In this document: piece by piece, positions 6,001 to 28,010 of the stretch
How positions within the stretch are numbered: position 1 is the stretch's first letter
Layout: every line of letters starts with the position of its first letter
Assembly (NCBI GenBank): GCA_903844665.1
Contig: CAIMUS010000020.1
Coordinates: 1-42,770 of the forward strand
From: an uncultured Pseudomonadota bacterium
GTDB lineage: Bacteria; Pseudomonadota; Gammaproteobacteria; Competibacterales; Competibacteraceae
DNA length: 42,770 bases
Reading direction: 5' to 3'
Notes under the pieces: model-generated
The model's database searches: none
What the model saw: only the letters and a program-made list of their open reading frames with translations
What the model was told of the DNA's origin: nothing
Program-made: the position numbers and the translations under genes

Positions 6001-6290
6001 AGATGCACCGGATCGAAGACCTGCAACGGGACATGGAACAACGGATCAAGGGGGCGCAACAGACCCTGCAGCCGGGCGAAGAACAGACCCGCTGCCGTAA
6101 GCTGGTGGAGCAGTTTACCGCCTTGCTGAACCAGATGAACCGCCGTGAGGTACGGGGTGAGATGCGGCGGGAGGATATCCTCGACCGGCCTATCCTGCGC
6201 GTCCTGATCCAGGAGCTGAGCAGGACGGCGGCTCCGGCATCTACCACCACCGCCGGCGGCGGCCTGTACGGCGGTCTGGACCTCGGTTAA
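3009..6290 (+). CDS. Tubulin-like GTPase (Tubulin_2 type), large
   Basis: This 1093-residue protein starts at ATG 3009, chosen because AGGA lies 8 bases upstream and the conserved domain begins at once. Residues about 12-30 (IPTLFVGIGGAGSRMVDRI) give the glycine-rich nucleotide-binding loop. AGGTGSG at 166-172 is the tubulin/FtsZ signature loop. FGAFGAVALVLPGEDL near 340-355 matches the end of the tubulin-like domain. Residues about 400-1090 are mostly charged helix with no hydrophobic segment. Tubulin_2 proteins are large bacterial relatives of tubulin found beside vWA and other NTPase proteins; their polymerisation is not established generally. It is the first of a tight run of six genes (3 bases to the next). 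It probably binds GTP in the cytoplasm and docks on the membrane partners downstream. Confidence 0.85.
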   Translation: MNDDYRTGQGTVIPTLFVGIGGAGSRMVDRIAGRAARLTNWESQLRPLTSFVSIDTNELDQHKLQHIPAGNRLNIAAFDKATVIEHLRRSKDEQALQWLDRGYRPRPGYKPGAGQIRVESRLGFFYHSPDIRQRFKELVDSSLRPGITWRQASPPKYNVYVFCTLAGGTGSGSFLSVAYLIDAVIREQNWQPRIIGNLLLSTLVLDKVGPELHPDIHANTYAALKELEHLTKLDYKQVKDEGRTEEPFVFCRDPNSREIPTVKARPFFLTFIFDRPAHLGLPDPEAAIADAAFLQIFTPLIDNLAGELDNYEKKLEEFTRFPGDLRDVGLGYTKNFGAFGAVALVLPGEDLLEYCILRFAAQALRRQITFGVDPGDANDDRARALAKLAVNYSDPKFLRMADEGRERAINQAFVASVQELARQDANQELTDGFWYQLVEGVDEGRLTGMDPQGQPIRNESLARQVERKLEEARAQLLNKVSLKERAFVFHKEGLNQYPELVNRLSEDIRAAGALVGEGLQNLEMAAAEGEVITALKLDPLSERYLAIRLLDLCEKQWLPEAQQQLDKAGARDINNSKVRERLERELFQSLQEAAGKWSLFNRDQAFLDARDEAQEYYRSVAAGARKTFDAQIRLRQLRALLAYLQRRSRQYAGLATRMEVLVQDLEREAERLRRGETAIVPPLALRVEVFETLDEPRQRLWDQVYRSLFLDGGRYIATFDRQSLAETIARELKPVVRPDGAVVDKTIDQSVNDLRRALCELGRQRLRPTILGDAVNRGLDLARGLELEAQLLLGAAKQPGEEVTAAEIAAYREKKFRALAQLAGVLARVNTAEAKALDDGVEVNRTRQLILGSTGDSTAAEQFRQSLEEVLAAGGRQVKEDTWHDPRLIIVHDVEMPIPLYYFPAVIGDIEEAYQQQAMDERRSYNLHTDYNWEKALPNLNPRRSELTVGWSLTLLAKGLVTRVIALQDGVLIWRVDEQSQVDELGKNFSSALYRLGEMHRIEDLQRDMEQRIKGAQQTLQPGEEQTRCRKLVEQFTALLNQMNRREVRGEMRREDILDRPILRVLIQELSRTAAPASTTTAGGGLYGGLDLG

Positions 6291-6293
6291 GCG

Positions 6294-8789
6294 ATGGCTG
6301 CGACCTCTACCCCGATTCCCGTGCATCGCACCACTCTGCTGGTCGGCTACGGCAACTTCGGCCTGGATGCCTTGCGCCGGTTTCTGGCCAGCACCGCCAC
6401 TCGTGGGGTGCTGGTCTGGGAGGAACCCACCGGCGCCGATAGCAACGAGCGCCGCCTGCGCGATCTGGCGCTGCTATGGGTGCGCGATCCCTTCGAGACC
6501 GGTGGGCCGGGGGCGGACGAGGAAAGCGTACTGGAGGGCAGCCATATCGAACTCATGCGCGACCTTTATCAGCAGATTCAAACGGTCGAGCAGGCGGAAG
6601 CGAAAACCGCTTTCGAGGAGGCGATGGAAGCCGCCGCCCGGGCGCTGCTGGATGCGGCGACCCGCGCCACGCGGCGGGAAAATCTCCCGCTCGGATTGGA
6701 TGTCATCGTGCTGGCGCGGCCCAATGGCCCTGCCGTAATCGGCAGACTGACCCCGTTGCTGGTTGCCGGTCTGGAGCGCCTGCACCAGTACGCCACCCAG
6801 TTGCAGCGCGCGGTGACCGGCGCCGGTGCGTTGAATTTTATCCAGATTCTGGATTTTGCCAACTACTGGCAAGGCTCCGACCAGGGACAACAGATTCGAA
6901 CGGCGGTGCAGGGGGCGGTGGAGCGCTGGCAGCAACGCCGGAGCGACGGCAAGCCCGCATTCGGCCGGATCTATCTGGTCGACGGCCATACCGCCGACGG
7001 TATCCGTGACGACCGTCAGCGGATCGACGAGATCAGCCTGTTTCTGGAGTTTCTGCTGTTCGAGGGCCAGCGCGGGGGCGAATTACAACGGCTTTATCAG
7101 GCGCTGTCTCCCCAGGAACCGCTGGTCGCGACCTTTGGAATCCGCCTGCTGGAGCGCAGCGCCGGCCTGTTGAGCCGCCTGGCGGCGGCCCGGTTCGGGA
7201 TCGACTGGCTGGATTATCTGGCCGGCGACGATACCTTACGGCTGGCGGCGGAACCGGTGGAATTGCGCCGGCAACTGGCCCCTTATCGCGCCGCCGGCTT
7301 GGAGCATCTGGTAAAGGTGGAACCCTTATGGACTGAACTCTATCGACAACTGGAGGTGCTGGCGCAGGAACTCGCCGGCCTGCGGGTGGACGTTCCCGAT
7401 TGGCCGCAACAGGTACAGGTCCGCTATGAACAGGCGGTCAGGCGCCTGGAAAGCGAACTGGCCACCCAGGTCCATGGCGCTATCCAAACGCTGAGCCGGG
7501 AACATCTGGCCGATCTGCCGGCAGCCTTACGCGCGGGCATTGACGCGGCTCTCCACCATGACCGGCAGCCGGCGCCGCTGGGGGCGGTGATTCGCGAGGT
7601 GGAAACCGCGCTGGCGGAGCTCGGTCAGGCGCCGGTCGGAATACCGCCAGCCGCCGCCGGCAGCGCCGCCGCCCTGGCGAAGCTCGCCGCCTTGCACCAG
7701 GACTATCGGCGCTTCCAACGGGAGCAACTGGATTCCAACGGCCTGCCGCAATGGTGGCCTTTATTCGCGCTCGTGCTCAGCCTGGGCTTAAGTCCGGTGG
7801 TCGCGGAAGTCCTCGGCGATCTGCCCAGGCCCGATCCGGCCAGTGCTCATTTTCTGGTCCAGGGCGCTTATACGGTCGCCCAATGGCTGGCCGCTCATCC
7901 TCTGGTCGTGGTAATAACGCTGGGGCTGCTGTTCTGGGGGCTGGGAGCGGGACTGGCCCAGCGCGGCATTCGCGGCCGGCTCCAGCGGGCAAGACGGTTC
8001 TGGAACGAGCCTGAACGCGGTCGGCTGGTCGATCGCTTAAGGGCGCTGTTGCGCCCGGATGGTGAACTCGGCAGACCCCTGAGCGGGTTGCTGGAACGGC
8101 TGCTCCAGGATCTGGCGTTAAGCATCCGCAGCGAGGTCAGCCGGGAACTGGGCCAGGTGCTGCAACGCTTGCAGGAACGCCGTCGTGAACTCACCTGGCT
8201 CAGGGAGCAGTTGCGGGAGTTTCTGAAGCTGCACGGTCTTAATCCGGCAGTACAGAGCGAGGAATGGACCCGTTTGAACCAGGAGAATACCGGCATCCGC
8301 TACGCCGTGGAACAGTACCAGGATTTTCAACGCATGCTGCAAACCAACCCGCCGGGTCCTGAACGCTTTCTGTCTACTCAGGCGGAGAGACGACCGTTTA
8401 CCGGTTGGGATAAGCGCTATAGCGATACTTTTCTCTATCCGCTGCGGTTTATCGATGAACTCAGCCGGCAATACCGGGACCCGTTTTTGGAAGAACTCGC
8501 CAAGCCCGGCATCGGCGCCGAACAGACCGCCCGTTCACAGGAATTCCGCGATTTCCTCAATCGTTATGGAACCTTTGCCCTGGCATTTTCCTGGCAAGCC
8601 CAGGCCGGCGTACCGGTCGACCGGCTCTATTGCCTGTTGCCGCGGCTCTGGTTGGGCTTGCAGGGCAGCCGCAATACGCTGACCGATCTCGGCATTGTCG
8701 ACCAGAATATTCTGGTCGGCGAAGACGTGGCGCGGGCTTATCTGCTGCGCCTGCAGTTAGGGGTGGAAACCGCATGTCTGCTGAGCTGA
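6294..8789 (+). CDS. Membrane-anchored protein with probable diverged tubulin-like domain
   Basis: This 831-residue protein starts 3 bases after the tubulin-like stop. Its N-terminus (HRTTLLVGYGNFGLDALRRF, residues 11-30) lines up by eye with the GTP-binding start of the preceding protein (VGIGGAGSRMVDRI). Later, RIYLVDGHTADG and PLVATFGIRLLERS (about 225-290) occupy the positions of IFDRP and the FGAFG strand. The GGTGSG loop is not found, so nucleotide binding may be lost. Two hydrophobic helices lie at about 484-505 and 535-555, followed by Arg-rich coiled coil to residue 700 and a C-terminal globular part. My reading is a tubulin-like pseudo-partner bound to the inner membrane. That homology is inference; the membrane helices and operon position are seen directly. 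Confidence 0.6.
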   Translation: MAATSTPIPVHRTTLLVGYGNFGLDALRRFLASTATRGVLVWEEPTGADSNERRLRDLALLWVRDPFETGGPGADEESVLEGSHIELMRDLYQQIQTVEQAEAKTAFEEAMEAAARALLDAATRATRRENLPLGLDVIVLARPNGPAVIGRLTPLLVAGLERLHQYATQLQRAVTGAGALNFIQILDFANYWQGSDQGQQIRTAVQGAVERWQQRRSDGKPAFGRIYLVDGHTADGIRDDRQRIDEISLFLEFLLFEGQRGGELQRLYQALSPQEPLVATFGIRLLERSAGLLSRLAAARFGIDWLDYLAGDDTLRLAAEPVELRRQLAPYRAAGLEHLVKVEPLWTELYRQLEVLAQELAGLRVDVPDWPQQVQVRYEQAVRRLESELATQVHGAIQTLSREHLADLPAALRAGIDAALHHDRQPAPLGAVIREVETALAELGQAPVGIPPAAAGSAAALAKLAALHQDYRRFQREQLDSNGLPQWWPLFALVLSLGLSPVVAEVLGDLPRPDPASAHFLVQGAYTVAQWLAAHPLVVVITLGLLFWGLGAGLAQRGIRGRLQRARRFWNEPERGRLVDRLRALLRPDGELGRPLSGLLERLLQDLALSIRSEVSRELGQVLQRLQERRRELTWLREQLREFLKLHGLNPAVQSEEWTRLNQENTGIRYAVEQYQDFQRMLQTNPPGPERFLSTQAERRPFTGWDKRYSDTFLYPLRFIDELSRQYRDPFLEELAKPGIGAEQTARSQEFRDFLNRYGTFALAFSWQAQAGVPVDRLYCLLPRLWLGLQGSRNTLTDLGIVDQNILVGEDVARAYLLRLQLGVETACLLS

Positions 8790-11593
8790 TGCTGCCCTGG
8801 GGCCTGGTCGTGCTGGGCGCTCTGCTGGGCGTGATCATGGACCGTCTGGCCCGCCGGCGCCGCCCGGACGGCGAGCGGGGGGATTACTGGAGCCGGATCG
8901 TTGTCTGGTATCTCTATCCGCTGGCGGGGTTACTCCTGTTATCCCAGGTGCTGACAACCCTGAGCGGGTGGCCGGCCGGCTGGCGCCTTTCTTACTGGAT
9001 CACTTTATTACTGCCCTTCATCGGCTGGGCGCTGGCCCTACTGGCGGGGCTGGCGGTAAAGCCGGCCGGCCGGGAGCAGGCGCGGTGGCTGGCCGGCGGG
9101 GCCGGTTTCGGCAATTCCCGTTACTGGTTGCTGTGGTGCGCCTTACCCTTGGTATTGATCCTGGCGTTCGAGGCGGGTGATCTGGGCGGCGGTGAGAGCG
9201 CCTATCCGGCGGCGGTCTGGAGCACCCTGGCGGTAGTGGCGCTCACCCTGGTCGGCATCGCGTTCAGTGCAGGCCGGGCGCCGCTCGCCGTCCCGGCAGC
9301 GGAGTCCTCCCGGACGGAAGCCGCCGGTCAACTGCAGCCCTGGCCCGAGCTGCTGGCGGCCCACGGCATTCAGGTACAAACCCTGGTCACCTGGCCGGCC
9401 GGCGCGCCGATGCGGGCGGTACGCGGCAGCGCGGCTCAGGGGCTGGCGGACCGGCTGGGTTCGATGGGCGCTCAGGCCATCGCTCCCGAACTGATCGAGG
9501 TGGTCGCGGCGCTGTTGGAACCGGAACAGCAGGGTGACGACTATGGTTCCATCCGGCTGGTGTTTGCGCCCGACGGTTGTGGTCAGGTAGAAGTGGTCGG
9601 CTTGGCGGCGGCGCTGCTGGACCAGCGGATTCATGCCGTAACGCTGGTGGTCACGGCGCGGGGGGCGGCCGGATTGGCCCGGCAACTGCAACGCTGGCTA
9701 CCGGAAGCGGCCCAGCGTGTCGTGGCGCTGGAACGCAACGAAATCCCGGCGGATGCGCTGATCTGGGTAACGGACGCCGAATTTCTCTCGGATCGCCTGT
9801 TGATGCTGCTGAAAAATCCGCAACTGGTGCGCCGCATCGGCTTGGTGGTATGGTGGCAGTTACAGGATTATACGGGCGTCATGGCCGCCAATTTATGGGC
9901 GATTACCCGTCGTCTGCACCGGCTGTTGCGCAGCCAGGGCCGCCACGATGTCCGCACCCTCGCCCTGTTGCGCCGAGTGTCCCATCCCGACGCCCAGATG
10001 GGCAATTTTGTCCGTCGCCTGCTGCCGCATCCCTTACCCCCCCGTGCGGAAACGCATGTCGAGCCACGCCTGCCGCACCCTGTCAGCCTGCATCTGCTGG
10101 AGGCGCAGCCTGCCTCCCTGAACCGTCGCAGCATGCAGGAAAATACGCTGGAGCGACAATACCTGCTGCTGCAGGCCGGCGCCGTTTCGGTGGCGGGAGG
10201 ATGGCCCACTTATCTAGAGCCGCCGGAGTTCATCTCCGCCCCTGAACTGGCGCAATTCCAGCAGGCCGCGGCGGGCGCCATGACCCTGGGGGAGCGGTTA
10301 TGCCTGGATCCCGCTGCCGCCGCCGCCCGGCTGCTGCAAGTCCAGTCGGCCGAACTGCTGGCGTTGCCGGAAATGCTCGGTCAGGGGGGACGCACCACTG
10401 TCGGCGATCTGCCGCATCACGTCGGGATGATGCCGCCGGCCAATCCTTATGTGACTCATCTGTTGGGGATGCTGAAAAAAGGCGGGGGTTTCCCGGCCTC
10501 ACGCCGTCTGGTCTGCGCCGAGGCCTGCCCGGCAATTATCCGGCGGCATCTGTTGCTGGCGTTGAACGAGTTGCCGGACACCCGCCGCGGCCTGTTGCAA
10601 AATGCCCTCTGGGATGAAGGGGTGGTTCGGGAAACCTTGCAGGATCTGGCCAAAGCAGGCCAGTTGACCCGGCGGGAGGTACGCTTCCTGGATGACAGCG
10701 ACCGCCTGATCAGCGAGTGGGAATACCAGAGCCTGAGAATTCCCCCTGGCCAGTACCGCCCTCTGGATACTGTCGGACTCAATCTGCTGGAAATACGCGA
10801 ACGCGCCGGCGATGTCGAGGGTGGCGGGGTGCGTTTGCGGGTGGATCCGGAACGCCTGTCGATCAAGGCGTATCCACGCCGGGTGTTTATGCACCAGGGT
10901 CAGCGTTACCGGATTCGTGACTGGAACTCGCTGCGTGAAGTGACGGAGCGCGGCTGGCTGGAATGCCAGCGGGAAGACCAGTGCAGTACGACCTGGCGTA
11001 TCCATAATGCCTTTGTGTTTTGGATTCGGCCGCTGCCCGGAGAGACAGCGGTCGCCATCGGCAGGCAGGGCAGGCTGACGCGGCTCGCGGTCGACCTGAG
11101 TTATGAAGAAGAAGTCACCGGTGTGATCGAATGGACACCGGATTCCAGCCGGCGCCCCCTGGCCGAGCCACAGCGGAGTTTTTTCAATCCGATCACCCAG
11201 ACGTTCGATACCCATGCGCTGGTATTACGCCTGCTGGAGCCACCGCTGGAGCCGAACGCACTGCCGTCGCTCTGCCAGGCCCTGCGTCATGTGCTGCCTG
11301 TTCATTTGGGGGTGGAGGAAGATGCGCTGGAAGTAGTGACCCTGAGCGGCGAGGATATCGATGGCGAAGAGACTTTCGGAGTGGCTGTCGTCGATCTGTA
11401 CCCCGGTGGCATCGGCCTGATCGATGCCATTCACGATGATAACACCCTGCTGCTACACTTGCTGGAGTGGACCCGCAACTGGCTGGCGGTTTGCCCGGAG
11501 GAGGCTTTGCAAACCCCGGCGGCACAGGCTACCAATCCCGATCAGCCGCCGCAACGGGCGGCGGCGCTTAAGCTGCTTGACCACATTATTTGA
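8774..11593 (+). CDS. Membrane protein with degenerate DUF1998-type helicase fold
   Basis: This 939-residue protein starts at ATG 8774, overlapping the previous gene by 16 bases. Five hydrophobic helices lie at about 8-22, 42-62, 72-95, 117-133 and 147-165. The soluble part then follows the order of DUF1998/MrfA-type superfamily 2 helicases. ALIWVTDAEFLSDRLL (about 330) matches the segment before the DEAH box, and VVWWQLQDYTGVMAANLWAI stands where those enzymes have DEIHTYRG followed by the helix. AYPRRVFMHQGQRYRIRDW (about 699) matches their YPGAVYLHQGETY block, and VAVVDLYPGGIGLIDAI (about 870) matches the DUF1998 end. There is no Walker A GKS/T and the DEAH residues are replaced, so ATPase activity is unlikely. 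The N-terminal membrane domain is unusual for this family. Similarity was judged by eye. Confidence 0.6.
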   Translation: MSAELMLPWGLVVLGALLGVIMDRLARRRRPDGERGDYWSRIVVWYLYPLAGLLLLSQVLTTLSGWPAGWRLSYWITLLLPFIGWALALLAGLAVKPAGREQARWLAGGAGFGNSRYWLLWCALPLVLILAFEAGDLGGGESAYPAAVWSTLAVVALTLVGIAFSAGRAPLAVPAAESSRTEAAGQLQPWPELLAAHGIQVQTLVTWPAGAPMRAVRGSAAQGLADRLGSMGAQAIAPELIEVVAALLEPEQQGDDYGSIRLVFAPDGCGQVEVVGLAAALLDQRIHAVTLVVTARGAAGLARQLQRWLPEAAQRVVALERNEIPADALIWVTDAEFLSDRLLMLLKNPQLVRRIGLVVWWQLQDYTGVMAANLWAITRRLHRLLRSQGRHDVRTLALLRRVSHPDAQMGNFVRRLLPHPLPPRAETHVEPRLPHPVSLHLLEAQPASLNRRSMQENTLERQYLLLQAGAVSVAGGWPTYLEPPEFISAPELAQFQQAAAGAMTLGERLCLDPAAAAARLLQVQSAELLALPEMLGQGGRTTVGDLPHHVGMMPPANPYVTHLLGMLKKGGGFPASRRLVCAEACPAIIRRHLLLALNELPDTRRGLLQNALWDEGVVRETLQDLAKAGQLTRREVRFLDDSDRLISEWEYQSLRIPPGQYRPLDTVGLNLLEIRERAGDVEGGGVRLRVDPERLSIKAYPRRVFMHQGQRYRIRDWNSLREVTERGWLECQREDQCSTTWRIHNAFVFWIRPLPGETAVAIGRQGRLTRLAVDLSYEEEVTGVIEWTPDSSRRPLAEPQRSFFNPITQTFDTHALVLRLLEPPLEPNALPSLCQALRHVLPVHLGVEEDALEVVTLSGEDIDGEETFGVAVVDLYPGGIGLIDAIHDDNTLLLHLLEWTRNWLAVCPEEALQTPAAQATNPDQPPQRAAALKLLDHII

Positions 11594-11618
11594 GTTTTTA
11601 ACCGCCAGGACAGGACTT

Positions 11619-13922
11619 ATGTTCGATAGCAAGGCACGGCAGCAACTTCAGGGTCTGCAATCCACCTTACAAAGCTGGGAGCATTCCGTCCCCACGCGCG
11701 CCCAGGGATTCCACCGTCTGCGCCGCCAGTTGCAACAGGATATCGAGACCGAACTGGCGCGTCGATTTTCCTGGATCGGTGAAGAAACGGCGCTGAGCTG
11801 CAGGCAGCGGTATTCACAACTGGAAAAGCTGGCCGACAGCCTGGCGGCTCTGGTCCGCAAGGCGGAGCAGTTGGAAGACGAGTTAGGACAAGTGCAACAG
11901 GCGTTTCCCGAACAGCGGGAAACGGCCTTATGGTGGCAGGAGCGGTGTGATCAGTGGCGGCAGGAACTGGGACGGCTGACGGCGGCTTGTGAACGTCAGG
12001 CCGATCTGTTTCAGGAAGAAGATACACTGGAACGGATAGAAAACAGTCTGCGTTTGCACGGCGAGGCGCTGCACTGGTTACAGGAGGCTGGAACTATCTT
12101 GCAGACCCTGGGGGCCAGCGCCGACACCGCCACTCTGGAAGCCGAGTTGCCCGAACTGCGCCAGACGCTGGAAACGGCCGGCCCTTCCCAGGACATGATC
12201 CAGCGGCTCAAAGCGCTCTGCCAGCCCCTGCAGGCCAAGGCCAGACAGCCCACCCCGCCGGAATTGCAGAATCTGTCTATGTTGCTGGCCGATATCCGGG
12301 GCTGGGTCCGGGAATTGAACACACCCGCCGACCGGATGGGCACGTTGGAACAACGGCACCGGCAACTGGCCGTGGAATGGCGTCGGCGCGATCAGGCGGA
12401 GTTACGGGACGTGTTGCAAGAAGCCGGAGAGTTACGCGAACAACTCACCGACCAGGCCCGCGCGTTACGCGAGCGCAAGCGGCGAGGATTCGAGGAATTG
12501 CTGGACGATCTGGTTCATGCCTGCGGTCCCCAGCCGGAAATCCAGCAGCGCCTGGAGGCCCTGAAGCAACGCACGGTAGACCGCTATCAACTGCATCGGG
12601 ACTGGCTGGCCAAGTTCGAAGAAGCCGACGAGTTTTTCAAAGCCATTGCCGATAACCAGGCGCTGGCGCTGGAGAAGCACCTGCGGGAGCGTCGCGAGGA
12701 GCTGGCGACGGGTCTGCGTAAACTGCAAGATCTGCCGCTGGCCGACGAGCTCCGGCAACAGGCGGAACAGTTGGAGCGTGAGGTCGATGAGCTTGCCCCT
12801 CTGCAAGAGGCCCAGGACGTGTTGCGGGCACTGCGCCAAAGCAACGATTTCAAACACCGTCTTAATGAACTCAGCCGACAGGCCGACCAGGATCTGGCCG
12901 ATCTGTCTGCGGCGCAGCAGAGCCTGCGTTCAGCCAACGCCGGCTTGCAACAGGAAGCCGCCGGGATCGGGATCGATATCGAGGATCTCGCCCAGGCTAT
13001 CGAAGCGCTGGATGAAGGCGCCAGCAACCGGACACTGGAACAGGCCCGGGCGTTGGCGCGGCAATTGGAAGCGCAATTGACCGAGGGTCGGCAGCGATTT
13101 CTGGAGCGCTGCCGGACGGTTATGGCTGAACGGCTGGCGGATATAGATAACATCCGTGATGTCTTGCAGCAGGCGGGTTTTGCCGATACCGCCCCGGCAG
13201 TGGCATTGCCGGAGGTTGCCGCGCTCGCCGATCCGCAGCAGGCCGTCCAACGGGTCACCCTGCTGAACCAGGAATACAACCGCCTGGAACAGCGGCTGGA
13301 ACAGGCCTTGACCGAAGGCGAGGAACAACGTGGCCACAGGCGGGCGCAATTGACGGGACTGGGTCTGGAAGCGCTGGATCCGGGCGACCGTGAGGAAGCG
13401 AAGGCTCTGCTCGCCCGGTTGCAGGCAGGTTCCTGGCTGGCAAAGCCCGACCGGCTGGAACGCCTGCGGGAGCTTGCCGGGCTGCTGGCGGCATGCGAGT
13501 CTTTGCTGGAGCGCCTGTCGGCGGAACAGCAGGATTTACAGGAACAGATCGACGCGCTGAAACAACGGCTGAGTGAGTTCAATCGGGACCGGTTGAGAAC
13601 CTTCTGCCCGGAGGAATTGATCGACCGAGTAACGGATCTGGTCTATGGCATTCCCGCTCGACCCCAACGTATGCATATCCAGCAATTGAATTCAGCCAAA
13701 ACGCTATTGGCCCGGATCGAAACCCAGGCCCGCCGGCTGGCGGCGCAAACCGTGGACAGGCAGGTGAGGGAGCTGCGCAAGCGCTTGTATAGTCATCCCG
13801 ATCCGCGGAATGCGGCGGCGCTTCTCGACGGGATCGCCGCCCTGCAAGACGAAGAATCTGTACCGGTCAACTTGCGCGAGCAACTGCGGAAAGTCGTGGC
13901 GCAATCAGGCAGGAGAAGCTAA
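11619..13922 (+). CDS. Long coiled-coil protein
   Basis: This 767-residue protein starts at ATG 11619, preceded by CAGGA; longer upstream frames overlap the membrane protein and are not used. Almost the whole length is Leu/Gln/Glu/Arg/Ala-rich heptad sequence with few glycines or prolines, such as LEQRHRQLAVEWRRRDQ and LREQLTDQARALRERK. There is no signal peptide, membrane helix or nucleotide motif. A short, less helical patch (FCPEELIDRVTDLVYGIP) lies near 665-685. It is likely a cytoplasmic rod or scaffold joining the tubulin-like and GTPase components. The next gene begins one base after its stop. No family is recognised. Confidence 0.75.
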   Translation: MFDSKARQQLQGLQSTLQSWEHSVPTRAQGFHRLRRQLQQDIETELARRFSWIGEETALSCRQRYSQLEKLADSLAALVRKAEQLEDELGQVQQAFPEQRETALWWQERCDQWRQELGRLTAACERQADLFQEEDTLERIENSLRLHGEALHWLQEAGTILQTLGASADTATLEAELPELRQTLETAGPSQDMIQRLKALCQPLQAKARQPTPPELQNLSMLLADIRGWVRELNTPADRMGTLEQRHRQLAVEWRRRDQAELRDVLQEAGELREQLTDQARALRERKRRGFEELLDDLVHACGPQPEIQQRLEALKQRTVDRYQLHRDWLAKFEEADEFFKAIADNQALALEKHLRERREELATGLRKLQDLPLADELRQQAEQLEREVDELAPLQEAQDVLRALRQSNDFKHRLNELSRQADQDLADLSAAQQSLRSANAGLQQEAAGIGIDIEDLAQAIEALDEGASNRTLEQARALARQLEAQLTEGRQRFLERCRTVMAERLADIDNIRDVLQQAGFADTAPAVALPEVAALADPQQAVQRVTLLNQEYNRLEQRLEQALTEGEEQRGHRRAQLTGLGLEALDPGDREEAKALLARLQAGSWLAKPDRLERLRELAGLLAACESLLERLSAEQQDLQEQIDALKQRLSEFNRDRLRTFCPEELIDRVTDLVYGIPARPQRMHIQQLNSAKTLLARIETQARRLAAQTVDRQVRELRKRLYSHPDPRNAAALLDGIAALQDEESVPVNLREQLRKVVAQSGRRS

Positions 13923-13923: not shown

Positions 13924-15600
13924 GTGGCTGCGCATAATCCCTGGCAATGGCCGGCGTTGAGCGGCGCCGAACCACCACAGCAATTGCAGTATGAGCGGGG
14001 CATCTGGGGCAAGGTGCATGGCGCTTCCTCGGACTTTCGCCGGATCGCCGCCACCGCCAAATTCGCTTTGCAACATCCCCGCCTGGAACGTGAGTTATTA
14101 CTGGGCAGTGAAGACCTGCCACAAAAGACCCAGTGCTGGCTGAGCGTGGGCAATACTCATTATGCCGTCGCCTGTTATCCCAGCCGGGCCGTCGATAAGA
14201 CGGGGCGTTCGGGTTTCCTGGAGAAGCAGATCATCGAATGGCGCCACCCCCCGGAGATTCCCGCGGCATTGGGTGCTTTACTGCTCCTGCCCGAAATCGC
14301 CCGTTATACCGATGTCATCTGGTGGGATAGCCGCAACCGGGCCGACTGGCAGGAAGCGGATTTCGCTCTCGCTCTCGGCGATTCAACTTGTCCGCCGCTG
14401 TCGGTCGGTGGCCTCGAGCTGCTGGTGCAACGCAGTATCGAGGCTTTGTTGAATGCGGTATCCCCTGAGGCATTAAGCCAGTTTTATGCAGCCGTCCTGG
14501 CCGGTCAGCGCGCCGTTGCCCTGCCAGGACTGACACAGCCTCTGCCCCCCGAAGCCCTGGGTGCGTTGCTGCTCCCCCTGGATCGCACCACGGCTGATCG
14601 ATTCTGTTTTATTAACTGGCTGCCCTCCCGCCATGCCGAGGGTGAGGATCTGCGCCAGCGCTGGGATGCGATATTGGGTGGCGCTGCGCCGGGTCTTGCC
14701 TTGGAGTCGCCCGCTCCGACCGCTTCCCAACGGCAGCAGGCCGAGCGGATGGCGCTGGCGTTAAGCCGGCAGGCTCCGGACAGCCTGCTTGAAAAGAGGG
14801 TGGCGGATGCTGTCGGGGATTCTTCGGCGGTGTCCGGAGGCCAGCCGATCCAACTGGCGATCTGGGGACCGTCGGCGGCTGGCAAAACCGTGCTGCTGGC
14901 GCAGCTCTATCTGGAAATCTATGCGGAAAGAGGCGATTGGGATATCTATCCCACCCAGAAATCGCTGGAGTTTATCGAACGTATGCAGGAATGGCGCGTT
15001 AACAATCTTTTCCCACCGGCGACGCCGGTAGGTCAAAAGGATCAGATCATCTATCAGTTTGTCAACCACCGGACCCATGCCAAAGCCGCTTTGCTGGTGG
15101 AGGACAGGGCTGGCAAGGATTATGAATCGCAGGAAGAAGAAAGCCGGCAGCGGCTGAATACCGCCGAAGGTCTGGTAATACTGGTCGATCCGTTCCGGGA
15201 ACAGCGCAGTCTGTATGTGGAACTGTCGCGCCTGCTCAATCGAATGCATGTGGACAGACAGGAGCCGGAGCAGAAAGATCGGCGGCCTATTGCGGTATGT
15301 ATTTCCAAGGCCGACTTTTTAATCGAATCGCCTGCCGATTATCGCCGCGCCTGCGAAGAACCGGATGCTTTCGTAAGGGAAAACGACCGCTGGAGTCTGG
15401 CGCCGTTGCTTGACCGCTTTTGCGCCAACTATCGGTTGTTCCCGGTATCCGCCGTGGGCGTCCAGTTGCACTATGGCGTTATCGAGGCCATCGCGTTTTA
15501 TGATGAAAATCTAAAACTGCGCATCGGCTCCAAAGGCAAGCCCTTCAACCTGATGGCGCCCTTCACCTGGTTGATCGACCAATTGACGGCAAACCGATGA
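13924..15600 (+). CDS. GTPase with N-terminal GTPase-associated domain
   Basis: This 558-residue protein starts at GTG 13924, chosen because AGGAG lies just upstream and the gene then abuts the coiled-coil stop. Residues 1-290 form a domain (YERGIWGKVHGASSDF, YPSRAVDKTGRSGFLEKQ) shared with the next gene and resembling the N-terminal part of GTPase-associated protein (GAP1) families. From about 305 a TRAFAC-like GTPase follows: P-loop GPSAAGKT at 315-322, DRAG at 394-397 as the G3 aspartate-glycine, SKAD at 461-464 as a G4 variant of NKxD, and SAVG as G5. No membrane helix is present. It overlaps the following gene by 4 bases (ATGA). It likely acts as a switch controlling the assembly. Confidence 0.78.
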   Translation: MAAHNPWQWPALSGAEPPQQLQYERGIWGKVHGASSDFRRIAATAKFALQHPRLERELLLGSEDLPQKTQCWLSVGNTHYAVACYPSRAVDKTGRSGFLEKQIIEWRHPPEIPAALGALLLLPEIARYTDVIWWDSRNRADWQEADFALALGDSTCPPLSVGGLELLVQRSIEALLNAVSPEALSQFYAAVLAGQRAVALPGLTQPLPPEALGALLLPLDRTTADRFCFINWLPSRHAEGEDLRQRWDAILGGAAPGLALESPAPTASQRQQAERMALALSRQAPDSLLEKRVADAVGDSSAVSGGQPIQLAIWGPSAAGKTVLLAQLYLEIYAERGDWDIYPTQKSLEFIERMQEWRVNNLFPPATPVGQKDQIIYQFVNHRTHAKAALLVEDRAGKDYESQEEESRQRLNTAEGLVILVDPFREQRSLYVELSRLLNRMHVDRQEPEQKDRRPIAVCISKADFLIESPADYRRACEEPDAFVRENDRWSLAPLLDRFCANYRLFPVSAVGVQLHYGVIEAIAFYDENLKLRIGSKGKPFNLMAPFTWLIDQLTANR

Positions 15601-17123
15601 TTGCTTCTCTGACCTGGCCGGCCCTGCAGCCTGCGCCGCAGCCGCTGCCATCCCAACTCGACTATGCGCGTGGAGTATGGGGCAAGGTGCACGGCGCCAG
15701 TTCCGATTTCCGTTGGATCGCGTACAGCGACGGCTTTAATCGCTATGGTAACGGGTTGGAACGGGAGCTGAATCTGGGGGCCGAAGACAACCCCTGCAAG
15801 GCGTTTTTCTGGCGTCCCCTGTCCAGGAATACCCAACCTGTCGGCTACTATGCCGTGGTCGGCTATCCGAGCCGGGCGGCGGATGCCGCCGGGCGCCAGG
15901 GGTTCCTGGAAAAGCAGGTGCTGGAATGGCCTTGTTCAGCCGATCTGCCGGCCGCGCTGGGCGCCTTGCTGCTGCTGCCTGCCACGGCGCCATGGACAGA
16001 CGATATCTGGTGGAGTCGCTACCGCGAGCAACCCTGGTCGCAACCCGAATTTGCGCTGCCGATTGCAGCGGCTGAATGTATGCCCGTGACCTGTTCCGAA
16101 GCGCTGCTTGCAGACATCATCGAGCGGGGACTGCAGGCATTGACGGCTGTCGATCCGGAGACACTGCGAGAGTGCTATGCACGGTTGCTGGCCGGACAGC
16201 GCCCTGCCTGTCTGCATGGATTATCTCAACCGCTGGCGCCGGAAGCGCTGGCGGCGCTGTTGCTGCCTCTGCCTCGCCCGGTAGCGGACAGCCTGTCTCT
16301 GGCCGGTTGGATTCCTGCTCATCGCTATTCCCTGGAAGAACTGGGTAAGCGTTGGGATCTGCTCGTCTTGCCTAAAGCGATAGCGATGCCGGCGTTATCA
16401 TCGAAGGCCGAGCGGCAACTGGAGGCTGCCGGGCGGATGGTGGAGGCGCTTTGGGAACGAAAGCCCGGATTGTTGGCGGCAACGCCGGCGGTGACCACAG
16501 CGGTGGACACTGTCCGTGAACCGCAAACTTTCGTCGAAAAGGCGGTAACGGCGAATCCACTGAGTGATCCCGCTCGACCGATTCTGCCAGGAGCACTGCT
16601 GACGCTGACCGAACCGGGCCCGAATGCGCCGTCGTTTATTCACGAGTTATATGAATTTGCCAGAGCGGTAGACCGACGCTGGCTGGATCCGACCAGTCTG
16701 GAAGCCAATTATCCTCAGGGCTTGAGCCCGTTGCCGATACAGTCGTCTGAAGCCAACTTGCTCTGTCGCTGGGTACGGGAAGTGGAATCGCAGCGCCCAT
16801 TTTATGCCGATAAGGCGCAGTGGCAGGTGAAGGTCGATCTACTGCGCGCGCTGGCGTTGATTCTGGTACCCGACCCTGACACGCCGGCGCAGGTCGGTTT
16901 GCCGCAAAGCGGCCGGATACCGGCCTTGTTGTACGCCGTCTTGTTGAGAGAACCCGGCACACGGGACGCGCTGGTCGCTTTGGGAACAGACGGCTTGAGT
17001 GAGATCATCCGGCAGAGTCTCGACTGCCGGATGATCCAAGGGATGCGATCGTGGCTGTCCGCTTGGCGGCGGCAGACTTCCGAGGAGTTGATCCGCAAGA
17101 TTATCGACGCTGTGTTGGACTAA
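15597..17123 (+). CDS. GTPase-associated domain protein, paralogue of the preceding N-domain
   Basis: This 508-residue protein starts inside the stop of the GTPase gene. Residues 15-290 repeat the upstream protein's N-domain: LDYARGVWGKVHGASSDFRW, YPSRAADAAGRQGFLEKQVL, LPAALGALLLLP and the EALAALLLPL block are near-identical in order and spacing. The GTPase half is absent. In its place are a short linker and an all-helical domain of about 170 residues (FIHELYEFARAVDRRWLDP to the end). The pair looks like a tandem duplication with loss or gain of the GTPase. It may be a regulatory subunit or adaptor of the GTPase. It is the last gene of the plus-strand cluster; only 31 bases separate its stop from the convergent vWA gene, with no clear terminator. 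Confidence 0.7.
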   Translation: MIASLTWPALQPAPQPLPSQLDYARGVWGKVHGASSDFRWIAYSDGFNRYGNGLERELNLGAEDNPCKAFFWRPLSRNTQPVGYYAVVGYPSRAADAAGRQGFLEKQVLEWPCSADLPAALGALLLLPATAPWTDDIWWSRYREQPWSQPEFALPIAAAECMPVTCSEALLADIIERGLQALTAVDPETLRECYARLLAGQRPACLHGLSQPLAPEALAALLLPLPRPVADSLSLAGWIPAHRYSLEELGKRWDLLVLPKAIAMPALSSKAERQLEAAGRMVEALWERKPGLLAATPAVTTAVDTVREPQTFVEKAVTANPLSDPARPILPGALLTLTEPGPNAPSFIHELYEFARAVDRRWLDPTSLEANYPQGLSPLPIQSSEANLLCRWVREVESQRPFYADKAQWQVKVDLLRALALILVPDPDTPAQVGLPQSGRIPALLYAVLLREPGTRDALVALGTDGLSEIIRQSLDCRMIQGMRSWLSAWRRQTSEELIRKIIDAVLD

Positions 17124-17154: not shown

Positions 17155-18273
17155 TTAGCCCGGCCTGCTGACTATCTCTACTAACTCTCCATAGGTTCCA
17201 CCGCGTCCAATATAACCCGAAAGATGCCAGAACGCTTCTGCTTCAACCAATCCATCGAACTGCGAAGCGACAAACGCCAGTTCGGGTAGTGAAGCTAAAC
17301 AGGCATACTGCTCCTGGGCATATTTTTGGAATTCACGTTGTGGCTCGATCAGACTATCCAGGAAATCAGGGTCTTGATCGTGATAGACAGTCAATAACTC
17401 CACGCCGCGTCGATGCAAACGGAGGGCCTGCGTATCCACGTCATTTTCCCGAATACAGGCATCTCCTCCTTTGGATACCGGCTGCAGGATAGAATACCCC
17501 GGTGAATCACCACTTATCAACACCAGCTTACGTGTGTCCGGACTCCAGTAAAGTTCATTGCAGGCGGCCAAGGCGTCGGCGAGCGCATCGACAAAATCCC
17601 CTCCCGATGTGGCTGGAATAGAAAGCAGTTGACTCTTAACCTGTTGCAGCGTTAAGGCTCGCAGCAGCCGATTCTCCGGCTCCACAGGGTAGAGCCGATA
17701 GCGCGGCTGCAAATCCGGGGCAGTAACATTGGGAATCGGCTGATCCCCGAAAGCCAGTACGACGATTCGGCAATCCTTGCAATACTGGCTCAGCGTCTCG
17801 ATAAAGCGACATAACTTTTCTACCTGCGCCGTCCAGTGTTCTTTGTCCGTAAGCAATAGAGAGGAAGTGAAAGTCCCCTGCTGACCACGGGAAAAAATTC
17901 GACTCGTGCCATCGATAACGATGGCCAGTTCGACGCTTTCTTTAGAACCATTCAGATAGATCGGCCGGTCGAGCGGCGGCAGCGAAGGAGATTCCGGCAG
18001 TAGAATAGTAGTGCGTCCTGGGCATTGAACCTGAAGACTACCGTTTCCATCCAATTCGACTTTCACCTGTACGCATTCACCTCCTTGAGCCGGTATCTCC
18101 GCACGGAATTTGACTGCTCCGTCTGCCTTAAGCAGCACATGGATATGGGAAGCGCCCGGCAAATTGCGTAATTCGACAGCACAGCGGGAACCACCAGCCC
18201 CTTGTAAAGGCAGTTGATGATTTTTAAGCTCGCCTCCGTTTGACAGGAAAGCGATAAGATCGATTGTGTCCAT
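17155..18273 (-). CDS. vWA-like domain protein with altered MIDAS
   Basis: This 372-residue protein ends the minus-strand cluster. Residues 1-100 form a beta-rich N-domain. A von Willebrand A-like fold starts at about 113 with VELAIVIDGTSR (D121), continues through CRIVVLAFGDQPIP and SGGDFVDALADALAACNELYW, and reaches KLVLISGDSPGYS near 260. A standard metal site would be D-x-S-x-S; here it is D-G-T-S-R, so metal binding is weakened or changed. The last 100 residues are helical. Proteins of this fold usually mediate metal-dependent protein-protein contacts and often accompany MoxR, Ter or tubulin-like proteins. It lies 42 bases after the gene before it. Confidence 0.72.
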   Translation of the reverse strand: MDTIDLIAFLSNGGELKNHQLPLQGAGGSRCAVELRNLPGASHIHVLLKADGAVKFRAEIPAQGGECVQVKVELDGNGSLQVQCPGRTTILLPESPSLPPLDRPIYLNGSKESVELAIVIDGTSRIFSRGQQGTFTSSLLLTDKEHWTAQVEKLCRFIETLSQYCKDCRIVVLAFGDQPIPNVTAPDLQPRYRLYPVEPENRLLRALTLQQVKSQLLSIPATSGGDFVDALADALAACNELYWSPDTRKLVLISGDSPGYSILQPVSKGGDACIRENDVDTQALRLHRRGVELLTVYHDQDPDFLDSLIEPQREFQKYAQEQYACLASLPELAFVASQFDGLVEAEAFWHLSGYIGRGGTYGELVEIVSRPG

Positions 18274-18315: not shown

Positions 18316-19746
18316 TTATCCTGGCTGATTTTGGATGGCAGAGAGCTTTTCCAGCTCACTTTTAAGTTTAACAATCCCTGGAAGGGCATTATCTATTTTT
18401 AAGTTTGTACAAGGCTCGGCTTTGAAAATAGTCCCTGATTGGTTAAAAAAACTCTTCTTGATAGATATTTTGAGTTCGGGTTTATCTTCTATTTCTTGAA
18501 TCTGGCATATTAGAAAAGCTAGCATATCTCTAATTTGACTATCAGGTTTGATAATGTTATTATTACCTGAATCAAGTACTTTCTCATAAACTTTTTTTGT
18601 TGCTGTTATAGCATCTACGTTCTCAAGAAACTTAGTATCATCTTGAGTTGCTACAATCGGAAGCTTGATCATACCCCATAAAAATTCTTTCTTTTTGAAA
18701 AGCTCGCTTTTATCTAAATTATTCAAATTTTGAATTTTACCAAAATGGGTATCCCATAATTTACTTAGATTGGGAATTTTATGTTGCTGGCTTTCTGTAG
18801 ATAAAAACGTCAGTAATCCATTAATTGCACCCGACAAATCTTCAGCCGGTGGATTAGATGGTGGCTCTGTTACAGGGACTGTTATTGGAGGTGGAGTGAC
18901 CGAAACAACAGGAGGCACAGAAGGTTTGCTACTTTTTAGCGACTCCACAGATGCTTTTAAAGTATTAATGCCTGTTAATAAGTTCGCATTATTATTTACC
19001 AAATTTTTATAACCATAAACGCCCGCTGCTAAAATACCTGCCAATATCAAAGCAGTTAGAGCAGACAGGATCATAGCGGTAGAAATCAACTTGTTACGAG
19101 GAGGTGGTTCATTATCTTGCTTGGAAATTTCTGCATCGTTAGATGCTACTGCCACAGGCACAAGTTTCTCATTGGCCTTCTCTTCCAACTTCTCCTCAAG
19201 ATGGGCCACCCTCAAATCCAATCCCGGTTGCCGCAGTAAATTCAGCATTATCGGCTCGAAATCGGCAGGAAACCAAGTGGAATAATTTTCGCGGAAAGAC
19301 TTAAAATGCGTTTCTGCATCTTCATCGACTGGCAGGATAATGTGAGAACCTTGGGGTAGTTGTAGAGATAATCCTGCACCGTCGAATGGCCGTTCAGCAA
19401 GTCGATAGCCAGGTTGAAGATAAAAAACGTGTCGTGGTGGCGACCAAGCTTCGGTTGTAGTAGCAGTGACACCCTGTATTTTAATTTCTAACTGCTCACT
19501 TTCATCCTTTACCTCGACCACCAAGCCACCATCACTTTGTCCGATCGATTCGATAACTTTCAACTTATAAGCTCGAAAAGACTCTATCTCGTTGAACTTT
19601 TGATCGGAGAGAAGCTCAGGTTCCTGGCAGGATGATCTCGAGTAAATTAACAGCGAGTAAACACTACCAGGTAACTCGACTGTCAACCGACAAGTCATCC
19701 CTCGATCTTGCTCAAAATTACGAAAGAAAGTTATGATTTCGTTCAT
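18316..19746 (-). CDS. Single-pass membrane protein, AT-rich gene
   Basis: This 476-residue protein has no recognised family. Residues 1-180 look like a beta-rich soluble domain. A charged helix (LEEKLEEKANEK) precedes a hydrophobic segment at about 221-245 (ISTAMILSALTALILAGILAAGVYGY). A Pro-rich linker follows (VTPPPITVPVTEPPSNPP), then a helical C-terminal domain rich in Lys/Asn/Ile. The plan of N-domain, helix and Pro linker repeats that of the protein at 1029-1757. The gene is visibly poorer in G+C than the plus-strand cluster. Its start overlaps the stop of the upstream 1197-residue gene by 4 bases, so the two are translationally coupled. Confidence 0.72.
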   Translation of the reverse strand: MNEIITFFRNFEQDRGMTCRLTVELPGSVYSLLIYSRSSCQEPELLSDQKFNEIESFRAYKLKVIESIGQSDGGLVVEVKDESEQLEIKIQGVTATTTEAWSPPRHVFYLQPGYRLAERPFDGAGLSLQLPQGSHIILPVDEDAETHFKSFRENYSTWFPADFEPIMLNLLRQPGLDLRVAHLEEKLEEKANEKLVPVAVASNDAEISKQDNEPPPRNKLISTAMILSALTALILAGILAAGVYGYKNLVNNNANLLTGINTLKASVESLKSSKPSVPPVVSVTPPPITVPVTEPPSNPPAEDLSGAINGLLTFLSTESQQHKIPNLSKLWDTHFGKIQNLNNLDKSELFKKKEFLWGMIKLPIVATQDDTKFLENVDAITATKKVYEKVLDSGNNNIIKPDSQIRDMLAFLICQIQEIEDKPELKISIKKSFFNQSGTIFKAEPCTNLKIDNALPGIVKLKSELEKLSAIQNQPG

Positions 19747-22700
19747 CTTCTCTCAATCTCATATTCCGAGTGCAGCAGACTGGCCATAAACTTTTCGCCC
19801 TCAAGTCGAAATCGCTCGGCTAATGTCTGTTGCTGCTGTTTATTCAAATACTTTCTTGCATAGTTGCAGATTTCGACAAGCGCTATAGTTATACGATCCT
19901 CTACACTGCGCATGTTTTGCTGGCGTCGGCAATTTCGTAAACTGTACAATAATGCTTGCCACCAAATCGAATTGCTCCGATATGCACCCGCAATTCGAAT
20001 GATATGTTGAGCTGTTTCAGCCAATCGGCCATTTCCGAACAAACTGGCTGCCAGATCGAAGGCTGGTAAGTAAGGCTGTGGATAGGACACATGTCTTAAC
20101 AACTTAGGGTTCTTACGTGCTGCTGTTTCAAAACAACACCAATATTGCCATCTTGCTATTTCCGATAGATTTTTGATATCGTAAATTATTCTGGCAAGAT
20201 AGCATAGTGGATGCTCCACTACAACCTGTCTTTCAATAGATTGAGTTTGGCGGAAATTGGCATTCAAATCATCCGTTACATTGCCAATGGTTGTCCAACA
20301 GCTATTATCAGAATCATTCTGACGAAGCGCCTTTAATGCCTTGTACGGTAATTTTTCTTTCCATACCTCATTACAGACCCCAGGGCAAAGGAATTCAGCG
20401 AGTTTATTGTAGTCATTGATTGCCAGTAAGCGGGCCAAATCTTTTCTGATCGTCGATGGCGAAGACGGAGGAGACAGCTTGGGATCGATACGCTGATCAA
20501 GCTGAATAAGAAAATCCTGATTGATTTTTTTCAGTATATTACCATCAAACCACTCTGCCAACCTGGACAGGAATCCCTGATTTTTCCATAGATCAGGTTT
20601 GTCAGCAGCCTGCAGCGCCGCCATGGGGTTTTCACGCAAGCTCGCCGCAACACTGTATATTCTAGCTTGCAGCGCTTTGGACTGACGATGGCCGGCGTAA
20701 TTATACAGATAGAGCGACTGTTCTAAGGTAAGCACTGGTAATTGAACTTGAGGAGTAGGCATTAGCAACCAGAGCATGGCATCCGCAGGGAAAGAAAACT
20801 GCCTGCCTACAAGATGTGATTGTTGGTAAGCTAATCTAATATTATTGATAATATTTTCGGAAGAACTGTTAACACTAACAGCTTCAACCAACTCCGCCAG
20901 CGCGCCAAAATCATTCGCCAGCCTGCAAAGACCAACAACCTGATCGGCTTCGAATGGCTTGATCCATGGCCAGAGTGAAGGACCGTGCGAATCTTCTCCG
21001 CCGCGTAACTGCTGTATCTCCAAATCTGACAACCAGGGTTGCAGATCATCGAGCACCTGTTTCCACGTCTCCAGAGTCACTTCCGGAGCATTGCTATCCT
21101 GCCACAGCGGACAGCGCAACCAGGCAAGCGCCGCTGTACGGCACTCCGATGGCGTTAATTCACTCTCAGCCTGGCGCCGCCAGCCAAACCAGGCGCCCCA
21201 TTGAATCAGAGCACGGGTAGTTCCCGCGCTGTCCCGCCGCATCCTGGCGATAACCGTTGCATAGACCTGCTGTATCTGCTCTTTATCCAGGCGCTGACCC
21301 GCCGCGCGCAATAATCTGAGGAGCGCGGCTGTGTTCAATCTCTCCCGCACCACGGCGGAACTTAACAACTGCCCGGCAACCTCATCCGCCCACGGCAATG
21401 CCGGCTCACCGTTCGGCAGCACCAGCGAAGCCGGCGCCAGGCAATGCCAGTGCTGTTCGTCCAGGGCGATCCCGACCAGATGCGCATGGGTTTTGGGACT
21501 GTCCAGTCTGTCCAGATTTTGCCGCAGGCGCTGCATCAGGGAATTGTCGGGGGCGATGGCGCCGCTCTGCGGATCGGCAGGCGCCAGCAGATCCGCCAGC
21601 CGGATATAGATTTCCCAATGCTCCAGAAAATCGAGCGTCTGCCCCAATTGCTGGATCGACCGGGCCAGATCGTCCGGTATGGATCCACGCTCGCGCAACC
21701 GGTCCAGAACCCGCTTCGAGGTCTTGCCCCAGCACGGCCAGTCCTGCGGGTTCTTCACCAGATAGCGTGCTGCATCGAGCAGCGTCTCTGCATCGACCGT
21801 ATTGATATGGATATGCGCCCAGGTCGGGTCGAGTTGCCCGGCTTTGGTCGCCGCCGCGAGAATCCTGCAATTGTCCGGATCTGCCGCCAGTTCCGCCAAT
21901 AACCCGCTTTCCTGCGACCTTCGCCCCAGTACTCCGGCTTTTAACTCTGCTTCCAGCAAACCATGCAAGGGAGTGAAAGCCTTCAATCGGGCCAGCGAGA
22001 CAGGCGCGGTTCGCTCCGCCGCCGCCGACGAGGAGAGCAGGGATGGGGCCTGCGCCAGCAACTGCAACAGCCGGCTCAGCTTAAGCGGGTCATCGGCCTT
22101 CCACCAGACAGGCAGCCATTCATCCAGCGTCAGGCCGAGACGGCCCAGGGCTTCGATGACGGCGTTTTGCAATACCTGCTCGCCCGCTGTCAGTTCGTCA
22201 GGGTGTTGCAGTACCCATTCGCACAGCGTCTGCCGGGGAAACAGGCGCCAGTCCTGCTCATCGAGCAACTGATTCCAGGGTAGATCGGCCGCATTTTGCG
22301 CCTGTGCCCGCAGATAGTGGTGAAATAAATAATCACGATCCGCCTCGGCGCCCGCCAGCGCCAGCGCCAGGTTATAGCTGATCTGCACTGAACGGACGTC
22401 GTTACCCACCGGCAGACCGGCGGTATGCCGCGGTCCGAAGCGCGCGCTGAATAACAACAGCCCGCGTGGCGCCTTCAGGGCGCCTTCCATAACCGCCTGG
22501 GCGTATGTCGCCGCTCTCTGCTCCAGCGGCTGACCGGCCTTGACTTCGCCCTGGCGGTCGAGCAGGGTGGCGTGGCGTTGCGCGCCCAGCGCCTCGCCGG
22601 CGATTTCATCCGGCACCGCGATCAGGTTGGCGTGCAGGTGTCGCGCAAACCGCTCCGGCTGGCGCGTATACAGGCGGATGGCGCAACGGTATTTCAAATC

Positions 22701-23336
22701 GGCCGGCAAGGCGGCCCGGGCGAAGGAAACCAGCGTAGGGAACGGTTCGCCCGCCGTAAACTCGCGCACCGGCACGGCGACCAGCAGCGGATACCCCTGC
22801 TCCAGAGCTTGCAGCAGATGACCGAGAAAGCGCTCGGCGACAGGCGCTTCTGGTTGCAGCCGGGCCAGCCACTGGGCAGGCAGGGCGGCTGGCCGGAGGG
22901 TCTCCAGTTGTGCCGCGGATGTGCCGATGGTTCGAGGTGTATCGAACCCGTTGGAGCAGCCCAGGTAAGCACCCGGATCGAAGTCCTCCCGACAATCGGC
23001 CAGTCGCCAGGCGCGGGCATGACTGAAGTAAGCGGCCCTGCGATCGTAGGCGCCCGCCGACATCAGGCGGACCACGAACAGCCAGTCCCGATAACAAAAA
23101 CACGACCAGGCTTCCAGTTGATCCTTGAGACGCTGGTGGTCGGCCGAATCCGAATCCAGGCTCGACCAGGGGCGAATGGCCTGTAATAACTCACCATCTC
23201 GAGCCAGCTCCGGCGCTGTTCCTTCCAGATATTGTTCGCCATGAGCGATAGGGCTGTCCGGCCCCTCGCCGATACCGGCTTTAGCCTGCCCACGATAAGC
23301 GGAAAGCACTAGAGTCGCCGTGGATTGCATCGGCAT
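19743..23336 (-). CDS. Large GTPase-associated (GAP1-like) protein
   Basis: This 1197-residue cytoplasmic protein starts at ATG 23336, 4 bases after the preceding GTPase stop. The first 300 residues (VLSAYRGQAKAGIG, YFSHARAWRLAD, YLGCSNGF, CAIRLYTRQPERFARHLHAN) resemble the N-terminal domain of GAP1-type proteins, which accompany double-GTPase systems. The remainder is helical-repeat sequence of the kind used as a scaffold. No catalytic motif is seen. Codon and base composition change within the gene: the part coding the first 800 residues is GC-rich, while the 3' part (about 19743-20950) is AT-rich, suggesting the C-terminal section was exchanged or acquired separately. Partnership with the GTPase is inferred from adjacency and family. 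Confidence 0.65.
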   Translation of the reverse strand: MPMQSTATLVLSAYRGQAKAGIGEGPDSPIAHGEQYLEGTAPELARDGELLQAIRPWSSLDSDSADHQRLKDQLEAWSCFCYRDWLFVVRLMSAGAYDRRAAYFSHARAWRLADCREDFDPGAYLGCSNGFDTPRTIGTSAAQLETLRPAALPAQWLARLQPEAPVAERFLGHLLQALEQGYPLLVAVPVREFTAGEPFPTLVSFARAALPADLKYRCAIRLYTRQPERFARHLHANLIAVPDEIAGEALGAQRHATLLDRQGEVKAGQPLEQRAATYAQAVMEGALKAPRGLLLFSARFGPRHTAGLPVGNDVRSVQISYNLALALAGAEADRDYLFHHYLRAQAQNAADLPWNQLLDEQDWRLFPRQTLCEWVLQHPDELTAGEQVLQNAVIEALGRLGLTLDEWLPVWWKADDPLKLSRLLQLLAQAPSLLSSSAAAERTAPVSLARLKAFTPLHGLLEAELKAGVLGRRSQESGLLAELAADPDNCRILAAATKAGQLDPTWAHIHINTVDAETLLDAARYLVKNPQDWPCWGKTSKRVLDRLRERGSIPDDLARSIQQLGQTLDFLEHWEIYIRLADLLAPADPQSGAIAPDNSLMQRLRQNLDRLDSPKTHAHLVGIALDEQHWHCLAPASLVLPNGEPALPWADEVAGQLLSSAVVRERLNTAALLRLLRAAGQRLDKEQIQQVYATVIARMRRDSAGTTRALIQWGAWFGWRRQAESELTPSECRTAALAWLRCPLWQDSNAPEVTLETWKQVLDDLQPWLSDLEIQQLRGGEDSHGPSLWPWIKPFEADQVVGLCRLANDFGALAELVEAVSVNSSSENIINNIRLAYQQSHLVGRQFSFPADAMLWLLMPTPQVQLPVLTLEQSLYLYNYAGHRQSKALQARIYSVAASLRENPMAALQAADKPDLWKNQGFLSRLAEWFDGNILKKINQDFLIQLDQRIDPKLSPPSSPSTIRKDLARLLAINDYNKLAEFLCPGVCNEVWKEKLPYKALKALRQNDSDNSCWTTIGNVTDDLNANFRQTQSIERQVVVEHPLCYLARIIYDIKNLSEIARWQYWCCFETAARKNPKLLRHVSYPQPYLPAFDLAASLFGNGRLAETAQHIIRIAGAYRSNSIWWQALLYSLRNCRRQQNMRSVEDRITIALVEICNYARKYLNKQQQQTLAERFRLEGEKFMASLLHSEYEIERR

Positions 23337-28009: not shown

Positions 28010-28010
28010 G

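Follow-up and report, generated by a model that had tools for sequence, protein, structure and literature searches.

Inspection of a 42,770-nt stretch of DNA (GCA_903844665.1, contig CAIMUS010000020.1, positions 1 to 42,770 of the forward strand; the whole stretch is referred to here as the window) revealed two adjacent genes, A and B, whose products begin with a common N-terminal domain (N-domain) and continue into different C-terminal halves. Gene A starts with a GTG codon, with AGGAGAAGCTAAG just upstream, and its stop codon is overlapped by the ATG start codon of gene B (ATGA). A is preceded, in the same orientation, by genes for a tubulin/FtsZ-like protein, an 831-aa protein, an MZB protein and a coiled-coil protein. 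The products of a convergent operon are a vWA-like protein and a protein with a single TM segment, together with a 1197-aa protein, a second P-loop NTPase and a multi-TM protein (Table 1).

Table 1. Genes and domains of the A/B locus, in window coordinates; membrane and coiled-coil labels were read off the sequence without a topology program, and TagF-like denotes a predicted fold.
Feature	Coordinates	Strand	Description or support
Tubulin/FtsZ-like protein (Tubulin_2)	3009..6290	+	Coiled-coil-like C-terminal region; PF13809, E=4.3e-43
831-aa membrane protein	6294..8789	+	Tubulin-like N-terminal glycine motif (suggestive only); 48% in L061
Multi-TM protein	8768..11593	+	C-terminal MZB domain; 49% in L012
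Coiled-coil protein	11586..13922	+	30% in L012
Gene A	13924..15600	+	TagF-like N-domain fused to DO-GTPase2 domain; 558 aa
TagF-like N-domain of A	13945..14690 (approximate boundaries)	+	49% identity to B; fold search on family member
DO-GTPase2 match in A	14854..15327	+	P-loop GPSAAGKT, DRAG, SKAD
Gene B	15597..17123	+	TagF-like N-domain and putative helical tail; 508 aa
vWA-like protein (label assigned by eye)	17155..18273	-	45% in L012, 37% in L024
Single-TM protein	18316..19746	-	Homologues in L012 and L024
1197-aa protein in GAP1 position	19743..23336	-	42% in G782, 40% in G954
Second P-loop NTPase, probably GTPase	23341..24756	-	53% in L060
Multi-TM 603-aa protein, first gene of convergent operon	24781..26592	-	Position only

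A and B are tandem paralogues of which one has the GTPase and the other lacks it, as originally predicted, and the pair is also kept in a second phylum (locus L012, below). Local alignment of A with B scored 586, compared with a maximum of 78 among 200 shuffles, and BLASTP aligned the N-domains with 138 of 290 residues identical (48%, E=8e-46). The similarity is not confined to the three sequence blocks quoted in the original prediction, as the alignment score with these blocks masked is 369 and identity outside them is 44% (105/238), well clear of the background level that would speak against a common domain. The alignment spans the predicted 290 residues, but similarity fades past approximately residue 250, and the folded domain is probably nearer 230-250 residues since confidence in an AlphaFold model of the N-domain of L012 B collapses beyond residue 226.

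The C-terminal half of A matches the DO-GTPase2 profile (PF19993) at 37.8 bits (cut-off, 27 bits), bearing out the claim that one copy runs on into a GTPase. L012 A matches the DO-GTPase profile at 45.9 bits, above the cut-off, and a standalone GTPase at a third locus (L024) scores just below it (26.4 bits). GxxxxGKT, DRxG and SKAD are retained in all three GTPase orthologues; a candidate for the conserved Walker B glutamate is seen in the window (VEDRAG) and in L012 (LEDRPG), the corresponding sequence in L024 being IVDRAG. The C-terminal half of B harbors no P-loop and has no match in Pfam or any other library searched, in keeping with a copy that continues into something other than a GTPase; the helical character ascribed to it is provisional, being seen in a low-confidence AlphaFold model of whole B (pLDDT 50) in which this half is all-helical. 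Comparison of the B tail with GASH gave no significant score, and a GASH assignment was dropped.

The gene order of the window is repeated on contig fragments of an Acidobacteriota metagenome-assembled genome (G782), where L061 carries tubulin-831-MZB, L012 carries MZB-coiled coil-A-B plus the convergent vWA-like and TM genes, and L060 carries the second GTPase followed by the 1197-aa gene. Orthologues of the tubulin are 67% identical in a further genome (G954) and 59% identical in G782. The window thus holds a multi-gene system that is conserved across two phyla and co-occurs with tubulin. The 603-aa protein has no orthologue in the related loci, and its assignment to the system rests on position. 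Several labels are tentative or were not adopted. The glycine motif of the 831-aa protein is suggestive of a second tubulin, but hhalign to tubulin was not significant; the vWA-like label derives from a sequence pattern read by eye (LAIVIDGTSR...GGDFVDALADAL), HMM and PDB sequence searches returning no match; and for the 1197-aa protein, Pfam gave no match and hhalign to two GAP1s was not significant. Unusually, the MZB (MrfA Zn-binding) domain of the 8768-11593 product belongs to a multi-TM protein in which no helicase domain was matched. Tubulin loci in G000:C130, G003, G597 and G661 lack an A or B homologue and were discarded as relatives of the system. The first of these (L013; 16700-19801 and 15091-16677) represents a second, different Tubulin_2 in the genome of the window, adjoining a protein with a zinc-ribbon-like N-terminus and with no A/B homologue nearby. 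The same genome also encodes a second DO-GTPase2-type GTPase (L039, G000:C49, 9598-10617), located downstream of a radical-SAM-like gene, with no GAP1-like neighbor seen.

Searching the genome_contigs collection yielded one A-B locus, L012, in which the two genes stand in the same order as in the window, with an identical ATGA overlap. The GTPase halves of the two loci are 47.7% identical and the B tails 44.6%, and the A and B tails are mutually dissimilar. Because each C-terminal half is orthologous across loci and unlike that of its neighbor, the two genes were distinct before the lineages split or exchanged the locus. The A-B pair is therefore, on the sequence comparison, in all probability ancient, and a recent tandem duplication is ruled out by the separate orthologues of the A and B C-terminal halves in another phylum. 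A sample of 297 genomes from the phylum of L012 added one further genome, G954 (locus L024), with a B of 36.8% identity over 470 residues. The L024 GTPase has no N-domain, as it starts directly with the P-loop domain and its frame is interrupted by stop codons further upstream (the contig starts 278 bases ahead of the gene), and B carries the sole N-domain detected in that genome. With the G954 GTPase standing alone and the domain found only on B, the N-domain appears not to be obligatory for the GTPase; B is here the constant partner, and the N-domain of A is either dispensable or a later fusion. Minus-strand ORFs between the L024 GTPase and B (1061-1861) look on visual inspection like a small DUF433/DUF5615 toxin-antitoxin pair, and occupy the site where the genes of L012 and the window overlap; given this insert, loss of the N-domain in G954 is as possible as its ancestral absence. 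No A/B homologue was found among 58 other relatives, and a sample of 399 genomes from the phylum of the window yielded, besides the window itself, one partial borderline match (E=7.2e-4, 19.5 bits) that was left out of the homologue set.

The original prediction proposed a tree of the N-domains. In the resulting five-sequence tree, run without bootstrap, the topology that joins A with A and B with B is marginally the best (p-AU 0.59), but grouping by genome is equally not rejected (0.52); the crossed topology is rejected (0.033). Informative sites among four sequences divide as nine for A-A|B-B, four for grouping by genome and two for the third split. The N-domain trees thus fit both one old duplication and homogenization within genomes. 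It is conceivable, though we consider it doubtful, that the similarity of A and B within a genome reflects gene conversion or independent fusions rather than one preserved old duplication: N-domain identity between A and B inside the window (48.9%) exceeds that between the two A proteins (43.7%), yet the closest N-domain pair is window B with L012 B (52.2%), the A-A|B-B topology is marginally favored, and the C-terminal halves of A and B are clearly orthologous across loci.

The N-domain matches no Pfam family, and a PDB sequence search was also blank. A relationship to TagF was raised as a one-line possibility from a motif pattern before any structure was predicted. TagF is a post-translational repressor of type VI secretion that acts by partner binding, and the P. 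aeruginosa protein homodimerizes (PMC5995506). The invariant N-domain residues GK, DF and S..DxxGR are counterparts of an exposed surface loop of TagF, in which GK and SDR are required for binding of TagF to Fha (PMC5995506). The motif GK-(5-7)-DF-(30-80)-S-(1-4)-DxxGR occurs in 5/5 N-domains, in 8/10 TagFs and in none of 200,000 shuffles, which shows rarity and not prediction since the pattern was composed after viewing both families; within the loci it is confined to A/B-type and TagF ORFs. Structure prediction then supports a TagF-like longin/DENN-type fold. Foldseek searches with two AlphaFold models, that of whole B and that of the L012 B N-domain (pLDDT 72, pTM 0.75), both returned Acinetobacter baylyi TagF (9t0n) as the top PDB match, with E=1.1e-4 and 6.5e-5, respectively, and probability 1.0, although the two models have family members in common and are not independent evidence. 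In neither search did any other match fall below 0.001; the TM-scores, computed on predicted models, are in the range of 0.3-0.4 (0.40/0.37) at 11% identity. The next PDB matches (E >= 0.02) are DENND1B, FLCN-FNIP2, DENND10, VAMP7 and Lst4 longin/DENN, interspersed with PAS and fluorescent-protein folds. The longin/DENN regulators among them (DENND1B, FLCN/FNIP2, Lst4) act beside small GTPases, but they are eukaryotic, match the N-domain models weakly (E of 0.02 or worse) and have no sequence similarity to the N-domain.

We refer to the N-domain as TagF-like and not as a TagF because the profile score is not significant, the DW and FPL elements are missing and no type VI genes were found nearby. 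The TagF_N profile (PF09867) matches none of window A, window B, L012 A and L012 B, and when the N-domain was compared with ten TagF sequences by hhalign, the score was not significant (E=0.22). The N-domain resembles TagF/ImpM (9t0n, 6iz8, 2QNU) in predicted fold and in the GK, DF and S..DxxGR loop residues, but in alignments with TagFs it lacks the DW motif, whose conserved residues TagF needs to bind Fha, and the FPL segment. No type VI secretion family was found among the main window ORFs scanned; a canonical TagF is encoded elsewhere in the same genome (G000:C158:10039).

The locus represents a variant form of the known "tubulin plus GTPase" systems of the FtsZ-like/DO-GTPase kind (Makarova & Koonin 2010; Kaur 2020). 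FtsZl1 systems that include vWA and GTPase genes have been put forward as candidates for membrane remodeling (PMC2875224). The window has in common with them a tubulin/FtsZ-like protein with a coiled coil, presumably FtsZl1 itself given the PF13809 match, an associated, clustered, predicted P-loop GTPase, several membrane proteins and possibly a vWA-like protein; it differs in its two TagF-like domains, one of them fused to the GTPase, and no OmpA or kinase gene was found in it. The available part of the FtsZl1 description makes no mention of a TagF-like component. DO-GTPase/GAP1 systems with tubulin have been described as conflict systems (Kaur et al. 2020, PMC7159879), and the DO-GTPase/GAP1-N2 type shares with the window DO-GTPase2, two GTPases, a tubulin-like protein, a large partner protein and TM components. 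In the window, however, the ORFs scanned gave no match to GAP1-N, GASH, FNIII or a zinc ribbon, and the GTPase bears an N-terminal TagF-like domain instead. This likeness invites the alternative that the N-domain is a divergent GAP1-N, making A and B fusions of the known DO-GTPase/GAP1 type. The system type, DO-GTPase2 and the tubulin agree with that account, in which GAP1 is at times fused to a GTPase (PMC7159879), and the strand patterns of the N-domain and GAP1-N are loosely similar by eye. Nevertheless, the GAP1 profiles do not match the N-domain, hhalign against two GAP1 proteins was not significant, and the fold search favors TagF; we therefore rejected the assignment and consider it improbable, while noting that GAP1-N and TagF might be of one common fold.

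The original prediction suggested that one of the copies had turned into a regulator dedicated to its neighbor. Such regulation, or heterodimerization, is plausible by analogy, because TagF, the nearest fold, represses by partner binding and homodimerizes (PMC5995506). The A-B order and ATGA overlap kept in a second phylum would suit proteins that are made together. At about an even chance, we propose that A and B form a co-translated switch module, built on TagF-like N-domains, within a membrane-associated system of eleven genes that joins a tubulin/FtsZ-like protein with GTPases; for this module we infer a heterodimer, a direction of regulation and a biological output. A would be a DO-GTPase with its own TagF-like domain and B an adaptor in which a TagF-like domain is joined to a helical tail; their TagF-like domains would pair, or bind a common partner, via the conserved GK/DF/S..DxxGR face, and the pairing would link the nucleotide state of A, in concert with the second GTPase, to how the tubulin, coiled-coil and membrane components assemble. 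The system might thereby be kept inactive, much as type VI secretion is by TagF. The main competing explanation, which we regard as somewhat unlikely, is that the N-domains are independent docking modules for one third component (the tubulin, the coiled-coil protein or the 1197-aa protein) with no regulation between A and B. TagF itself works through a third protein, Fha (PMC5995506), the system has many further conserved subunits, and the G954 GTPase is kept without an N-domain, all of which would fit docking; the strict A-B adjacency and ATGA overlap in two phyla are better suited to a stoichiometric pair, as in the switch module that we favor.

In the open-access literature searched, TagF combined with longin or a GTPase in this arrangement is not described. 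Our results place a predicted TagF-like fold outside type VI secretion, directly fused to a GTPase, and suggest that domains of the TagF type also govern GTPase switches beyond that secretion system. This provides a testable idea for the TagF-like fold, namely that it senses or sets a GTPase switch. More speculatively, and in our estimation unlikely, TagF may belong to a wider bacterial class of longin/DENN-type GTPase-switch regulators, in which DO-GTPase-fused and free copies constitute a heterodimeric switch on a tubulin-based membrane machine; were this true, the TagF of type VI secretion would derive from a GTPase regulator. The module as defined here (a GTPase with the domain, the domain with a helical tail, or a GTPase alone) offers a handle on poorly understood tubulin/GTPase systems, for which roles in membrane remodeling or in limiting infection have been predicted.

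Few genomes carry the system: it occurs in one of 37 examined in the family of the window and in 2 of the 297 that sample the phylum of the Acidobacteriota locus. No A/B match came from the plasmids, phages and viral contigs searched, and a mobile or phage origin was rejected. At one edge of the system lie a tRNA-Lys (26794-26869) and an IS66 transposase (30039-31295), which, together with the absence of the system from 36 genomes of the same family, suggests an accessory island. Past the convergent operon and the tRNA-Lys, a MoxR-like AAA ATPase (AAA_5, 8e-11) is followed by a CoxE-type vWA protein (PF05762, 7e-8) at 27155-29198, possibly an unrelated CoxD/CoxE pair. Lastly, an NMT1-like periplasmic binding protein is encoded directly upstream of the tubulin gene (1791-2828), and a homologue of 34% identity is found near a tubulin gene in L014.
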